Positions 35,914 to 40,788 of a stretch of 64,000 bases of DNA are shown piece by piece (the stretch's first letter is position 1; each line of letters starts with the position of its first letter). A program made the translations under genes and the position numbers. The notes below the pieces were generated by a model that was not told the DNA's origin, did no database searches, and was given only the letters and a program-made list of their open reading frames with translations. Source of the DNA: Alphaproteobacteria bacterium (GTDB lineage: Bacteria > Pseudomonadota > Alphaproteobacteria > Caulobacterales > Hyphomonadaceae); the NCBI GenBank assembly GCA_016125405.1, contig WGLW01000008.1, positions 1 to 64,000 on the forward strand, read 5' to 3'.

Positions 35914-37224
35914 TCAGCCGGTGTGGTAGGCGCGCTCGCCGTGCGAGGCCATGTCGAGGCCCTCCACTTCGGCTTCCGGTCTGACGCGGATGCGGACAAC
36001 CTGCCTGAGGCCGTAAAAGAGCGCGGCGGATACGCCGACCGACCAGAGGATTGTGACGACCACCCCTTCAAGCTGGACCCAGGCCTGCGCGCCGATCCCG
36101 GTCCCCCCGAGGCCGGGCGATAGCGGCCCCAGGCTGGCCAGGAACGGGATCAGAAGAGTTCCCAGGATGCCGCCCACGCCGTGGACGGCGAATACGTCGA
36201 GGCTGTCGTCGATCTTCAGCCTGAGCCGGATCAGCTGAACGACTGAAAAGCAGACGACGGATGCAAGAATGCCGAGGATCACGGCCCCGGCTGGTCCCAC
36301 GGAGCCGGCCGCAGGAGTGATCGTGGCGAGGCCGGCGACAAGTCCCGTCACAGTGCCGACGAGGCCCGGACGGCCAAACTTCACCCACTCGATCGCCATC
36401 CAGACAATCGCGGCGGTCGACGCCGAAAGGTGCGTCACCAGCATGGCGCGGCCGGCGACGGCATTTGCGCCAAGCGCCGAGCCCGCGTTGAAGCCATACC
36501 AGCCAACCCACAGCAGGCCGGCGCCGATCATGACCAGCACAGGACTGTGCGGTGGAGAAATCTGGCCAGGAAAGCCTTGGCGCTTGCCCAGCAGCATGGC
36601 GAACACCAGCGCGGACGAGCCGGCTGTCGCGTGGACGACCAGACCGCCGGCGAAATCGCGGACGCCCGCCTGGTTCAACCATCCACCGCCCCAAACCCAG
36701 TGGCAGACGGGGGCGTAAACCAGCAGCATCCAGACCGAGCTGAAGATCAGCACCGAAAGGAAGTTTGTTCGTTCGGGATATGCTCCGACGATCAGAGCGG
36801 GCGTGATGATCGCAAAGGTCATCTGGAACATGAAAAACACGCTCTCGGGGATCGAGCCGACCGTGCTGTCAGCCGAGACGCCATTGAGAAACGCCTTGCC
36901 GAGCCCGCCCCAGAGGGCGTTTGCCGATCCGCCATCGCCGAACGCGATCGAATAGCCCACAGCGTACCAAAGCAGCGACATCAGACAGGCGATGACGACG
37001 CACTGGCTCAACACGGACAGCACATTCTTGGTGTGCACCAGGCCGCCATAGAACAGCGCCAGTGCGGGCAGGGTCATGAGCAGGACGAGAGCGGTGGACG
37101 CGAGCACCCACGCGGTGTCTCCGGCGCTTGTTTCCGCGAATGCGGCGGGCGCAGCCAGCGCGGCGACGACCGTCGCCATGAACGCGCGGCGGCCAAGCCT
37201 GAAGCCACGCAAGAGACTGTTCAT
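35914..37224 (-). CDS. amt: Ammonium transporter, Amt/MEP family
   Basis: A 436-residue channel-like ammonium transporter with a signal sequence (GRRAFMATVVAALAAPAAFA) and eleven membrane helices. Visible: the Amt signature VHTKNVLSVLSQCVVIACLM, the conserved PVCHWVWGGGWL, DFAGGLVVHATAG (first pore His) and FAVHGVGGILGTLLIPFLA (second pore His). The usual glnK partner is not next to it, so PII control would act from elsewhere. The gene is followed by a hairpin and then rplY. The 276-bp region upstream (37225-37500) is shared with the divergent BlaI-type gene. Confidence 0.95.
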   Translation of the reverse strand: MNSLLRGFRLGRRAFMATVVAALAAPAAFAETSAGDTAWVLASTALVLLMTLPALALFYGGLVHTKNVLSVLSQCVVIACLMSLLWYAVGYSIAFGDGGSANALWGGLGKAFLNGVSADSTVGSIPESVFFMFQMTFAIITPALIVGAYPERTNFLSVLIFSSVWMLLVYAPVCHWVWGGGWLNQAGVRDFAGGLVVHATAGSSALVFAMLLGKRQGFPGQISPPHSPVLVMIGAGLLWVGWYGFNAGSALGANAVAGRAMLVTHLSASTAAIVWMAIEWVKFGRPGLVGTVTGLVAGLATITPAAGSVGPAGAVILGILASVVCFSVVQLIRLRLKIDDSLDVFAVHGVGGILGTLLIPFLASLGPLSPGLGGTGIGAQAWVQLEGVVVTILWSVGVSAALFYGLRQVVRIRVRPEAEVEGLDMASHGERAYHTG

Positions 37225-37272
37225 TGTTACGCCCTTCCGCCCCAGTAATCCGATTATGCCCCCAAGTGCCCG

Positions 37273-37289
37273 CCAATTAGGCGAATTGG
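37273..37289. promoter_or_regulatory. Inverted repeat upstream of amt
   Basis: CCAATT (37273-37278), spacer AGGCG, AATTGG (37284-37289) is a perfect 6-bp inverted repeat about 50 bp upstream of the amt start, nested with CGCC/GGCG. It is AT-rich in a GC-rich genome and is followed by an A-tract. It could be a regulator site for amt. I did not find a convincing sigma-54 -24/-12 promoter here. Confidence 0.35.
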
Positions 37290-37445
37290 AAAAAAACTGC
37301 CTGCAATTCGGGCGTGATGCTGGCTCGTATGGGTGCGGCGCCTCAAATGCGGGCGGAATATCGGTAGGTTGCTCAAAAAACAGGCTGTTTTGCTACGCGG
37401 TCGCCTTGCGTTCGTGAATCACTGATGTCCCTAGTCCATGCTGTG

Positions 37446-37473
37446 TTGACAGCCGTAGATATGATGCTACAAC
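37446..37473 (+). promoter_or_regulatory. Predicted promoter of the BlaI-type gene
   Basis: A perfect -35 hexamer TTGACA at 37446-37451 is followed after 16 bp by TACAAC (37468-37473), a weak match to the -10 consensus. The operator palindrome at 37466-37479 covers the -10 region, as expected for an autoregulated repressor. The distance to the ATG at 37501 fits a short leader. Confidence 0.5.
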
Positions 37474-37479
37474 TGTAGC
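37466..37479. promoter_or_regulatory. BlaI/MecI-type operator palindrome
   Basis: GCTACA-AC-TGTAGC: 6-bp perfect arms around a two-base centre. The core TACAnnTGTA is the classic operator half-site arrangement of BlaI/MecI repressors. It lies 21 bp upstream of the start codon of the BlaI-type gene, over the predicted -10 element, implying that the repressor controls its own operon. Confidence 0.7.
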
Positions 37480-37500
37480 GTATCGATTCGTGAGAAGCAC

Positions 37501-37896
37501 ATGGCGGGCAGTTACAACAGCACCGACCTTCAGATCCTCAAGGCCCTGTGGAGCGGCGAGCGCATGAGCGCACGCGAAGTCCACGATGCGCTGAGCGCGG
37601 AAACCGGGTGGAGCTATTCCACCACCCGCACGCTGCTTACCCGCATGGCGGAGAAGGGCTTTGTCGCCCGCAACGATTTTCACGGCGTCGCGATTTATTC
37701 CGCTTCGGCTAGCCGTGTTCAGGTGCTCGGCAGCATCGCGCGGGAGCTGACGCGCGGGGTGTTCGATATCCGGGGTGCTTTGCCCGCTTCGATGTTTGCC
37801 GACAGCCCGCACATTACGCCCGAGGACCTCGCCGAACTCGACGCGATCCTCAACGCCGGTGACAGCGCAGACCCAACCCCGCCGGAAAAGGAATGA
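37501..37896 (+). CDS. BlaI/MecI/CopY-family repressor
   Basis: A 131-residue winged-helix repressor. The N-terminal DNA-binding domain includes DLQILKALWSGERMSAREVHD and the wing TRTLLTRMAEKGFVARNDF; the C-terminal part is helical and carries the dimerisation and cleavage region in this family. BlaI-type repressors leave DNA after proteolysis triggered by a BlaR1-type membrane metalloprotease, which here is encoded immediately downstream with a 4-bp overlap (ATGA, 37893-37896). A TACAnnTGTA operator lies upstream. The regulon beyond this operon is not visible. Confidence 0.9.
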   Translation: MAGSYNSTDLQILKALWSGERMSAREVHDALSAETGWSYSTTRTLLTRMAEKGFVARNDFHGVAIYSASASRVQVLGSIARELTRGVFDIRGALPASMFADSPHITPEDLAELDAILNAGDSADPTPPEKE

Positions 37897-39839
37897 CGGT
37901 CATGACGATTGTTTGGCTCCTTCTGTCGTCGATCCTCTGGGGCGCTCTGGTCGTTGGCGCCAGCGCCGCCATTCAATCCGGCTTGAAGATGTCTGGCTCG
38001 ACACAGCAATGGCTCTGGCGCGCCGCGTCATTGCTGCTGATCCTGCCGTGGCTCGCAGCGCCGTTCGCCACGCTGCTTCCGCGGATCCCCGTCGGCCTTC
38101 CGGAAATGACGCCGGATTTTCCCGGGCGCGGACTGGACGTCACCGTGACCGCCGCGCCCATCGTTGAGGCAAGTTTTTCCACGCCTCATCTGGATTTGCC
38201 ATGGGCCGACATCGTGGCGGTCGTCCTGGTCGCGGGCTGGATCTGGCGTTTGGTGGCGGCGCATCGCGCGCGCACCGAGCTGCGCCGGGTAATCGCCCCT
38301 TCGGTTGCGGTCGCGCAAGGGCCCGCCGCCGCCGCCGTGCGCGTCTGGTCGCAGAGACTATCACTGAAGCGCCATCCGGAATTGCGACTGACCGATGCGT
38401 CGGTTTCTCCCTTCTCCTTCGGCGTGATGCGACCCGTGATTTGCCTGCCGAAGGACATCGAGGCCAGGCTGTCGCATTCAGCGCTGAACCTGATCGTGGC
38501 CCACGAATGCTTGCACGTGGCGCGGGGCGATGGCTGGTTGCGTCCTCTGGAGCGGATGACTGCCGACGTTCTTTGGTTCAATCCGTTCGCATGGCGTATC
38601 CGGCGAGAACTGGATCTCGCCCGCGAACTCGCGTGCGACGAGGCGGTGCTGGAACAGTCCGTCGAACCGGCAACCTATGCCCGTGTTCTGCGTGACGTGG
38701 CGGGGTTGGTCGCGGGCCTGGGCTCGGCCGCGCCCGCGACGTCGATGTCGCTTTCGGGCGGGGGGCGGGTTCTGTCCTTTCGAATGAAGCGAACGCTGGG
38801 ATATGCATCGCGCATCCCTGGCCGTCTTGCGTTTGGCGCCGTGGCGCTGCTGCTGGTTGTTGGCGCACCCATGGCCGTGGCGCAGGCCATTCTGTCAGGA
38901 CCGCCGTCTCCGCCACCGCCCGTAACCGCGCCGGTCGCGCCGCCGCCAGCACCTCCCGCGCCTCCTGCGGCGCCAGCGCCCCCCGCACCGCCGGCTCCGG
39001 CTGGATCATCTGTAGATGGTGTCGCACCGCCCGCGCCACCTGCGCCGGTGAAGCCCTCCGTCGATGCAATCGCCCCGCTGGCGCCTGTGTCGCTGATCGA
39101 TGACAAGGTCCGCGCGCCCTTCAATGCTCACGTGACGAAAGTGGCGAAGGACAACAAGCGCGGCCTCTATGTCGTCATCGACCAAGTCGACGACGGGAAA
39201 GGGTTCGGCGCCAGCGACGCACGAGGGTGCACGCTCGAAACGCCTCATCTCGCCCGCGCCCGGGTGAAGGAAGGCCAGACGATTGCTGCTGGAGACGTTA
39301 TCGGAGACTCGACGTCCGACTGGAACGGCAAGACCACCGTCTTCTGCAAGACGTTCGACGCGGACCGTCTGCCTGGCCCTGTCGCCACGCCGGCTAAGTA
39401 CGTTGCGCCGCCGCCAGTTGGATTGCCGGGCGCCAGCGCGCCAGTCCTGCTGCCGCCCGCGCACGTATCGAGCCCTTTTGGATACCGTAATGACCCGTTC
39501 ACTCACTTGGCTGCCTGGCACGAGGGCGTGGATATTGCGGCCTCACTGGGCTCTTCAGTGCAGACGCCTGCTGCCGGCAAGGTCACTTATGCAGGCCCGA
39601 GACCCGGACTGGGCAACGTCGTCGAGATCTCAGCAGGCAACAACTACACCCTGCGCTTTGCCCATCTCGGAGCGCTTGCCGTGAAAGAGGGCGAGCGAAC
39701 CAATGCCGGAGACAGTGTCGGGGCGATCGGCATGGATGACAAATCGACTGGGCCGCATGTCCATTTCGAGGTCTTCTGGAAAGGACATTCCTACGACCCG
39801 CAGACCATCAGTGGCCTGGTTCTGATCGGCGCCGGCTGA
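37893..39839 (+). CDS. BlaR1-like M56 metallopeptidase fused to M23 domains
   Basis: A 648-residue fusion. Residues 1-345 form an M56/BlaR1-like membrane module with helices near 5-25, 40-60, 103-122 and 313-335, and the zinc-protease motif AHECLHVARGD (HExxH) with ELACDEAVLE nearby. A Pro/Ala linker (about 340-400) follows. Residues about 405-495 resemble an M23 fold but lack the zinc ligands. Residues about 520-645 form an intact M23/LytM domain: HEGVD (HxxxD) and GPHVHFEV. Classical BlaR1 has a penicillin-binding sensor in this place. The M23 part should face the periplasm and may sense or cut peptidoglycan. It is coupled to the BlaI-type gene by ATGA. Database pipelines know M23/M56 proteins as a type; I know of no functional study. 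Confidence 0.87.
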   Translation: MTVMTIVWLLLSSILWGALVVGASAAIQSGLKMSGSTQQWLWRAASLLLILPWLAAPFATLLPRIPVGLPEMTPDFPGRGLDVTVTAAPIVEASFSTPHLDLPWADIVAVVLVAGWIWRLVAAHRARTELRRVIAPSVAVAQGPAAAAVRVWSQRLSLKRHPELRLTDASVSPFSFGVMRPVICLPKDIEARLSHSALNLIVAHECLHVARGDGWLRPLERMTADVLWFNPFAWRIRRELDLARELACDEAVLEQSVEPATYARVLRDVAGLVAGLGSAAPATSMSLSGGGRVLSFRMKRTLGYASRIPGRLAFGAVALLLVVGAPMAVAQAILSGPPSPPPPVTAPVAPPPAPPAPPAAPAPPAPPAPAGSSVDGVAPPAPPAPVKPSVDAIAPLAPVSLIDDKVRAPFNAHVTKVAKDNKRGLYVVIDQVDDGKGFGASDARGCTLETPHLARARVKEGQTIAAGDVIGDSTSDWNGKTTVFCKTFDADRLPGPVATPAKYVAPPPVGLPGASAPVLLPPAHVSSPFGYRNDPFTHLAAWHEGVDIAASLGSSVQTPAAGKVTYAGPRPGLGNVVEISAGNNYTLRFAHLGALAVKEGERTNAGDSVGAIGMDDKSTGPHVHFEVFWKGHSYDPQTISGLVLIGAG

Positions 39840-39855
39840 CGAAACCCGCCAGCGA

Positions 39856-40788
39856 TCAGTCGAACATCTTGGAGATGCTCTCGTCGTTGGCGATGCGGCG
39901 AATGGCTTCGCCGATCAGCGGCGCCAGCGAGATGGTGCGGATTTTCTTCGCGGCCTTGAGCTGTTCGGTCGCCTGGATGGTGTCGGTGATCACCAGCTCT
40001 TTCAGCTTCGACTTGTCGATGTTGCTGGGGGCGCCGTTCGACAGCACGCCATGAGTCACATAGGCGGCGACTTCTTTCGCGCCCTTTTCGAGCAGGGCGG
40101 TCGCGGCATTGATCAGCGTGCCGCCGCTGTCGGTCATGTCGTCGATCAGGATGCACTTGCGTCCCTCGACCTCGCCGATGATGTTCATCACCTCGGACTC
40201 GCCTGCCTTGGCGCGCCGCTTGTCCACGATGGCGAGATCGACGCCGAGCCGCTTGGCGAGCGCCCTGGCGCGAACCACTCCGCCCACGTCGGGAGAAATG
40301 ATGATGAGATCCTTGACGCCGTAGTTCTCGCGGATGTCCTCCTCGATTGCCGGGCCGGCGAAGAGGTTGTCCGTGGGGCGATCGAAGAAGCCCTGGATCT
40401 GCGCGGCGTGCAGGTCGACCGTCACGACCCGGTCGCAGCCGGCGGTGGTGATCAGGTTCGCGACGAGCTTGGCCGAAATCGGCGTCCGGCCGTCCGTCTT
40501 CCTGTCCTGACGTGCGTAGCCGAAGTAGGGGATGATCGCCGTTACGCGACGGGCGCTCGCGCGCACCAGCGCGTCGATCGTGATCAGCAATTCCATGAGA
40601 TGGTCGTTGGCCGGCGCCGATGTCGACTGGATGACGTACACATCCTTGCCGCGGACGTTCTCGTTCACCTTCACGAAGACTTCGCGATCCTTGAATGTCT
40701 TCACCTCGGCATCGGCGAGGTGCATGTCGAGATACGCGGCGATATTGGCGGCCAGCGGCCGGTTGGAATTGCACGAGATCAATTTCAT
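39856..40788 (-). CDS. prs: Ribose-phosphate pyrophosphokinase
   Basis: Makes PRPP from ribose-5-phosphate and ATP, feeding purine, pyrimidine, His and Trp synthesis. The 310-residue length is typical. Features: [19 protein letters not shown] at the start, [58 protein letters not shown], and the PRPP loop [18 protein letters not shown]. The ATG at 40786-40788 is the family start. It is convergent with the M56/M23 gene (16 bp). The 163-bp gap upstream to pgeF should hold its promoter. Confidence 0.96.

Follow-up and report, generated by a model that had tools for sequence, protein, structure and literature searches.

A 64,000-nucleotide stretch of an Alphaproteobacteria bacterium genome (Caulobacterales, Hyphomonadaceae; contig WGLW01000008.1, positions 1 to 64,000), here called the window, carries an operon in which blaI, the gene of a BlaI-type repressor, is followed by a gene that fuses an M56 zinc protease to M23-type peptidoglycan domains. 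We tentatively favor, at a confidence close to but short of even, a model in which the fusion protein is a BlaR1-type receptor acting by regulated proteolysis, in which a periplasmic M23 (LytM-type) peptidoglycan-binding domain replaces the penicillin sensor and which mainly controls its own synthesis. A preliminary description of the window had noticed the repressor and the M56-M23 fusion, and our analysis confirms the observation. Beyond it, we find that a catalytic histidine has been lost from most fused M23 domains, that the operator is placed almost exclusively at this operon, that the fourth helix of the fusion ends in an AxA-Q motif, and that particular lineages carry further genes downstream.

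Both proteins are identified by Pfam matches above cut-off. The repressor matched Penicillinase_R (PF03965), the BlaI/MecI/CopY profile, at 74.7 bits (cut-off 22.6); the NCBIfam BlaI, MecI and CopY models that matched it all stayed below their own cut-offs. The fusion matched Peptidase_M56 (PF05569) at 106.4 bits (cut-off 31), with an HExxH...E zinc site, and Peptidase_M23 (PF01551) at 110.7 bits (cut-off 28.7) in two stretches, the better of which, at residues 543-636, has HxxxD and HxH; it thus belongs to both families. As first described, the repressor gene overlaps the fusion gene by 4 bp (37893-37896). We set aside an annotation artefact or frame error as the source of the M23 tail, as the whole-genome search gave a 658-codon stop-free open frame and M56 and M23 occur together in 80 loci. 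In a Pfam scan up to E = 1, no penicillin-binding sensor domain was found in the fusion, which by domain content is thus neither a BlaR1 nor a MecR1. The NCBIfam blaR1 and MecR1 matches are limited to residues 102-255 and 159-254, and blaR1_generic scored 65.5 bits against a cut-off of 400, too low for an equivalog.

Judged by alignment, the M56 active site of the window protein is complete and BlaR1-like. H204, E205, H208, D213, E245, D249, Y262 and R297 do not vary among the 13 proteins aligned, and match H201, E202, H205, D210, E242, D246, Y261 and R294, which are discussed in the parts consulted of the S. aureus BlaR1 structure paper (PMC9834060). A structure model of the whole protein, weak overall (pLDDT 71, pTM 0.46) and with ten-residue blocks at 71-94 from residue 521 onward, predicts helices at residues 2-30, 35-61, 104-134 and 310-334, then the Pro/Ala linker, a beta-rich module at about 400-484 and an M23 fold at 517-645. 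Lysine and arginine together number 26 in the loop at 125-309, which holds the M56 site, and 2 in the loop at 62-103. The helix positions and this charge bias therefore place M56 inside and M23 outside, and predict an N-out, C-out arrangement like that of BlaR1 (PMC9834060), with the M23 part in the periplasm where the preliminary description had put it. S. aureus BlaI is cleaved between N101 and F102 (PMC9834060). The window BlaI has F99 in the corresponding place, an equivalence set by region and without formal alignment to the S. aureus protein, and this residue is phenylalanine in 69 of 71 BlaI proteins.

Beyond the fourth helix, the Pro/Ala linker and M23-type modules are present as first described, and the HxxxD and HxH ligands of the last module are intact (Table 1). 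With H591, which lies 31 residues before H622, the window protein has all five M23 catalytic and ligand residues, as do 20 of 80 fused proteins in all. The earlier module (about residues 405-487) is a weak M23 match at 15.8 bits and is devoid of the ligands. C446 and C485 within it are conserved across all five sequences aligned, those of the window and four relatives, as would be expected for a disulfide outside the cytoplasm. Among the structure matches listed, the closest solved relatives of the M23 domain are NMB0315 and ShyA.

Table 1. Features of the blaI operon, in window coordinates.
Feature	Position	Strand	Basis and remarks
TTGACA, -35-like hexamer	37446..37451	+	Sequence; TTGAC-type hexamer upstream of blaI in many relatives
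BlaI operator GCTACA-AC-TGTAGC, GCTACAACTGTAGC	37466..37479	+	Pattern, conservation; predicted site over the expected -10
blaI, 131-aa winged-helix repressor	37501..37896	+	Open reading frame and Pfam; F99 in region matching P1' Phe102 of S. aureus BlaI
M56-M23 fusion protein, 648 aa	37893..39839	+	Open reading frame and Pfam
Peptidase_M56 match, residues 53-266; HECLH at residues 204-208	38049..38690	+	Pfam, alignment
Helix 4, residues 310-331, ends in AVAQ, signal-peptide-like	38820..38885	+	Model, alignment
Pro/Ala-rich linker, residues 332-404, 62% P+A	38886..39104	+	Composition
M23-like module without metal ligands, with C446 and C485	39105..39353	+	Weak profile match, alignment
Peptidase_M23 domain, residues 543-636; H543, D547, H591, H622, H624	39519..39800	+	Pfam, residues located

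The pair is conserved among relatives. We assembled 71 BlaI loci: the window, 17 of the 18 loci from a protein search of 40 relatives (the other, L052, has no BlaI and was dropped), and 53 found by BlaI match alone, these being all genome rows that scored 78 bits or more and were not yet included (another 18 rows, at 61 bits or less, were left out). An M56 open reading frame (ORF) adjoins BlaI in all 71; six of these ORFs, with over-long starts, were recovered past the first script rule, and that of L079 is a fragment at a contig end. Mapping the architecture, a check suggested in the preliminary description, placed an M23 domain of more than 60 bits in the M56 protein at 64 of the 71 loci, including 49 of the 53 chosen by BlaI alone. 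The other seven comprise three contig-end cuts (L079, L092 and L123), two proteins with other tails (L037 and L087), one that has lost its last M23 (L039) and one with ankyrin repeats (L051). Within the window's genus the pair is patchy, with a BlaI match at E <=1e-12 in 7 of 15 genomes, its own included; some of the others are incomplete. Matches to BlaI-like paralogues with one in-frame TGA were also seen (G021:C10, G045:C179, G067:C1 and G089:C1).

More widely, a class-wide M56 search of 67 genomes found four with a match over cut-off. We then surveyed all 40 M56 places listed outside the order in a phylum search of 199 genomes, and 40 of the places listed by a separate search within the order, the latter chosen partly for lower M56 scores and thus not a random sample. 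A BlaI-like ORF lies on the same strand at 79 of these 80 loci, at distances that are unreliable in several owing to a first-start rule. A full M23 tail is present at 2 of 40 loci outside the order and 14 of 40 inside; L206 carries a degenerate one. The 64 M56 proteins without a full M23 tail carry TonB_C in 14 cases and ankyrin repeats in 5 (Pfam). M56 beside BlaI with such varied tails is therefore a chassis whose tails are exchangeable. In L206 (590-2731) a Metal_resist-like stretch, which at 23.5 bits falls short of the cut-off, comes after the degenerate M23 module.

The operator named in the preliminary description is present and is conserved upstream of blaI in relatives. It contains TACA-N2-TGTA, the operator type of BlaI, and begins 14 nucleotides past the TTGACA hexamer; a generic sigma-70 scan called no promoter in the region upstream of blaI, this hexamer included. 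With up to two mismatches allowed, the pattern has two matches in the window, one site read on both strands, against a mean of 0.34 in shuffled sequences, which reached at least two in 6 of 100. The case for the operator is therefore made by its conservation and not by the window alone. Across the 71 loci, the region upstream of blaI has CTACA-N2-TGTAG at 10 of 10 positions in 29, at 9 in 25, at 8 in 13 and at fewer in 4; at least 9 positions are thus present in 54 of 71. Several sites that match at 8 positions are altered symmetrically, GCGACA-N2-TGTCGC for example, which looks as though operator and repressor have co-varied.

Across the window's own genome (3.86 Mb in 56 contigs), CTACA-N2-TGTAG occurs once, at this blaI. 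As about 1.3 occurrences are expected from base composition, it is the placement, not the number, that is informative. The shorter TACA-N2-TGTA occurs at five sites: this blaI, two at a second BlaI gene on contig C18, one between a TetR-like and an SDR-like ORF, and one within an EAL-type ORF. A further site with one mismatch, on contig C39, abuts a rarA-like ORF (these names, and that of the TetR-like ORF of G019 below, were given by eye). Of 22 relatives, 21 have GCTACA-N2-TGTAG at blaI, and the pattern recurs at no more than three other sites. Three further genomes of the family have an exact CTACAA-N-TGTAG site elsewhere instead: in G022 it lies at a second pair of BlaI and M56 genes, in G019 before a TetR-like ORF, and in G021 it is one of the pair of sites described below; G017 has none. 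As far as exact matches show, the M56-M23 operon thus appears to be mostly its own target. We set aside a wide BlaI regulon, as three of the five TACA-N2-TGTA sites of the own genome fall at two BlaI operons; a degenerate regulon may exist. Two BlaI-type operators in G021 (L071, ~2500-2570) lie before a TonB-dependent-receptor-like ORF, distant from the BlaI-M56-M23 operon of that genome. On contig C18 (L054, L243 and L244), the second BlaI of the window's genome adjoins an M56-TonB_C protein and has its own two TACA-N2-TGTA sites 23 bp apart, and contig C50 carries a third BlaI-M56 pair.

M23 enzymes have a middle histidine, His260 in LytM, besides HxxxD and HxH. H260 and H291 of LytM are described as essential for catalysis in a LytU study, the first taking a proton from water (PMC5519744); an M23 review is more cautious, stating that this histidine might help activate water (PMC9662197). 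None of the 80 fused M23 domains has lost a zinc ligand or the first HxH histidine. The preliminary description had named ligand loss in homologues as a result that would speak against it; no domain of the 80 shows such loss, yet the M23 part as a whole has been lost or replaced in L037, L039, L051 and L087. The middle histidine, about 30 residues before HxH, behaves differently. The five-residue strings read HDQHH in 55 domains, HDHHH in 20, HDSHH in 4 and HDRHH in 1, so that it is missing from 60 of 80. Within f1, the family of the window, it is lost in 58 of 60; the exceptions are the window, which retains it, and L038, in which the M56 part belongs to another clade. Outside f1, it is lost in 2 of 20 and the other 18 domains are complete. 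The separate M23 proteins in the fetched loci read HDHHH in 25 of 25 (none lost), a difference from the fused domains with a Fisher p of 3e-12 in which the rows are not independent, because many of the separate proteins are MepM-like, of about 400 amino acids, from different genomes, and four sit beside the operon. A quick M56 tree, which carries long-branch warnings, needs at least five changes of the middle histidine and groups the window with three Q-type relatives in a supported four-member clade; the histidine of the window was either regained or kept, and the tree fits both. We also considered linker length as a cause of the loss and found no rule, as H-type linkers span 7 to 403 amino acids.

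The preliminary description had proposed either a sensor of peptidoglycan state or an endopeptidase under BlaI control, and both readings stand. The loss of the middle histidine in most of the window's family tilts us towards the sensor, while the full catalytic set in the window protein and in the 18 complete domains outside its family keeps the enzyme alive. In the latter case, which is our main alternative and which we judge rather unlikely, the protein would be a self-regulated membrane-tethered endopeptidase: M23 would be the output, cutting D-Ala-meso-diaminopimelic acid (mDAP) cross-links, and M56 and BlaI would set its dose according to a signal sensed in the membrane. The parts consulted of the M23 review group both NMB0315 and ShyA with enzymes that cut after D-Ala and before D-Ala or diaminopimelic acid (Dpm) (PMC9662197), and an operon that is the main holder of its own operator would suit such dosing. 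Yet the domains that have lost a histidine called essential in LytM (PMC5519744) have kept their ligands, gene pair and operator, and the short linkers of Q-type proteins (11-26 amino acids in 52 of 55) would keep the domain near the inner membrane.

Support for a receptor comes from the complete M56 site, the conserved F99, the topology, the BlaI-type operator with its near-exclusive sites, the histidine loss, the secreted M23 proteins described below and the alternative M56 tails. The gene pair, the M56 residues and the operator also argue for a BlaR1-type protease under BlaI control, as was first suggested. We infer the ligand, the passage of the signal, the cleavage of BlaI and the physiological output as follows. 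At rest, BlaI would sit on the operator over the -10 and keep its own operon shut, and the M23 groove would bind peptidoglycan stem peptides or cross-links. A change in the content of the groove, caused by free, loosened or abnormally cross-linked peptidoglycan, would be relayed through the helices to the cytoplasmic zinc site of M56, which would cleave BlaI next to F99. The derepressed operon would then supply more BlaI and more receptor, resetting the loop. In the family of the window, the M23 domain would mostly be a zinc-holding binder minus one catalytic histidine, a parallel to the BlaR1 sensor, which is acylated by its ligand; the window protein, with its full set, may cut as well as bind. 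That peptidoglycan can act in BlaI control has a precedent of another form in B. licheniformis, where BlaI is itself bound by a peptidoglycan dipeptide (PMC3305447).

Several points weigh against the receptor model. Since the genome has almost no further exact operator, the benefit of a response beyond making the receptor is hard to see. The window M23 keeps H591, as do most fused domains outside its family, and a non-cutting sensor is thus not a general rule. Sequence similarity of the M56 part to BlaR1 is weak (phmmer E 0.98), and the 50 Foldseek matches listed, of 351 obtained with the full model, include no BlaR1 chain. As those listed are all M23-type folds save one cyanophage assembly, they are uninformative on M56. 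Finally, the predicted signal-peptide-like character of helix 4 may mean that the M23 part is released by cleavage, in which case no signal would be transmitted and the receptor model would fail.

This last point bears on a further alternative, which we regard as improbable, in which the fusion is a polyprotein: signal peptidase would cut at AxA-Q after helix 4, a soluble periplasmic M23 would be freed, and M56 alone would act on BlaI. An AxA-type triplet followed by Q, E or D ends helix 4 in 71 of 80 fused proteins, compared with 5 of 80 for helix 2, which should cross the membrane in the same direction. Q331 is invariant in 13 of 13 aligned proteins and a basic stretch precedes the helix; together with the AxA-Q end, this stretch makes helix 4 look signal-peptide-like. 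The call is by motif and not by a predictor, however, and the end of the helix may be conserved for packing against M56. The Q form is also found in 18 of 70 M56 proteins without a full M23, and some other-tailed M56 proteins have similar ends. The 73-residue Pro/Ala tether of the window protein suits a protein that remains anchored. If helix 4 is not cleaved, the AxA-Q motif is a feature of M56 without an explanation.

We consider it very unlikely that the M23 domain is instead a docking part for envelope proteins, as EnvC and NlpD are for amidases, with a protein partner and not peptidoglycan as the signal. According to the parts of the M23 review consulted, members without the full catalytic set, zinc or both act mostly in protein-protein contacts (PMC9662197), and the loss of the middle histidine, like the lost or replaced tail in four relatives, would agree with such a role. 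It is the retention of three zinc ligands and the first HxH histidine in all 80 domains that speaks against docking.

As to the origin of the domain, the window M23 scored 115.7 bits against a separate M23 protein of its own genome (contig C30) and at most 100.5 bits against the fused relatives listed, a difference that spoke for a recent swap of the domain from a MepM-like protein. Its identities to fused and to separate domains overlap, however, with 46% to the fused L098 and 43% to the separate L015. We built a quick tree from 107 M23 domains, of which 80 are fused and 27 separate, that on C30 included; it uses few columns and has the window on a long branch. There the window M23 joins the fused domains of its family in a set of 58 rows with support (96*), L036 being the nearest. 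Such a swap is thus not supported, though it may have happened. In L038 (5394-7892), an M56 protein of another clade has an LptA/LptD_N-like stretch followed by a full M23 that groups with L036, L040 and L041. As the operon copy of the same genome, G010, lacks M23 (L037), the domain may have moved between M56 proteins.

Genes that follow the fusion differ by lineage. In four genomes of one genus (L119, L124, L125 and L126), a short, secreted-looking M23 protein with the full set starts 70-115 bp after the fusion gene, and the M23 of the fusion itself has Q or S at the middle histidine (Pfam was run on two of the small proteins). The four nest among the fused domains in the M23 tree, and therefore look like copies of the fused domain with a full histidine set, which would suit a split of sensor and enzyme through duplication in those genomes. 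At 11 of 14 M23-tailed loci of family f5, the degenerate L206 included, the next gene noted after the M56-M23 fusion, in the same orientation, encodes an AcrB-type RND pump (L047, L048, L049, L206, L208, L216, L218, L233, L235, L236 and L238). The pump was called by ACR_tran at 634.7 bits for L047 and by BLAST to the L047 protein for the others; none was found in the downstream stretch examined after L213, L214 and L239. The small M23 proteins and the pump are candidates for a co-regulated output. At five other loci (L082, L087, L091, L098 and L101), the last 4 bp of the M56 gene are shared with a lipoprotein-like ORF of about 100 amino acids; that of L091 has no Pfam match.

The surroundings of the window operon are ordinary. 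A gene for an L25-type ribosomal protein and the ammonium transporter gene amtB lie on one side, and prs (ribose-phosphate pyrophosphokinase), oriented towards the operon, on the other. No RNA element at 36800-40200 reached the gathering score.

Compared with known systems, the operon is like BlaR1/BlaI and MecR1/MecI of staphylococci and Bacillus in having a repressor beside an M56 receptor, four helices, HExxH/ExxxD with matching D, Y and R, a phenylalanine in the BlaI cleavage region and the TACA-N2-TGTA operator type. It differs in that M23 sits where the penicillin-binding sensor would be, that amtB, the L25 gene and prs are its neighbours with no beta-lactamase or penicillin-binding protein gene beside it, and that its exact operator is nearly confined to itself. 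With the M23 DD-endopeptidases MepM, ShyA and NMB0315, the window protein shares the M23 fold and the full HxxxD...H...HxH set; unlike them, it is fused to M56 under BlaI, and most of its family relatives have Q at the middle histidine. The M56-TonB_C and M56-ankyrin proteins share M56 with a BlaI-like ORF and differ in the C-terminal part.

Annotation pipelines use a name that joins M23 and M56. In the full text of the open-licence PubMed Central literature, we found no paper on BlaI with M56-M23 and no described mechanism, in agreement with the preliminary description. The parts consulted of the M23 review name 'M56 peptidase' among the combinations seen at under 1% of matches, state that M56 has yet to be shown to take part in cleaving peptidoglycan, and give the combination without operon, residues or mechanism (PMC9662197).

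A broader claim, on which we are doubtful, is that these proteins form a class of receptor that reads the state of peptidoglycan directly. An M23 endopeptidase would have been captured by a BlaR1-type protease and, in several lineages, would have lost one catalytic histidine while keeping zinc, becoming a binding sensor. It would act almost solely on the operon that encodes it, to which some lineages would have added an RND efflux pump or a secreted full-set M23 descended from the fused domain.

How Gram-negative bacteria sense wall damage or cross-linking is incompletely understood. The operon represents a conserved, widespread and little-studied receptor design, joining an intracellular protease and a repressor to an apparent peptidoglycan-binding domain, through which a cell may be able to sense its wall or adjust it. 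As exact operator sites are nearly confined to the operon, the response should be readable from one promoter, and the signal read by an M56 receptor of non-penicillin type becomes open to test. Since one catalytic histidine has been lost repeatedly, the fused domains also offer a natural contrast between enzyme and sensor.

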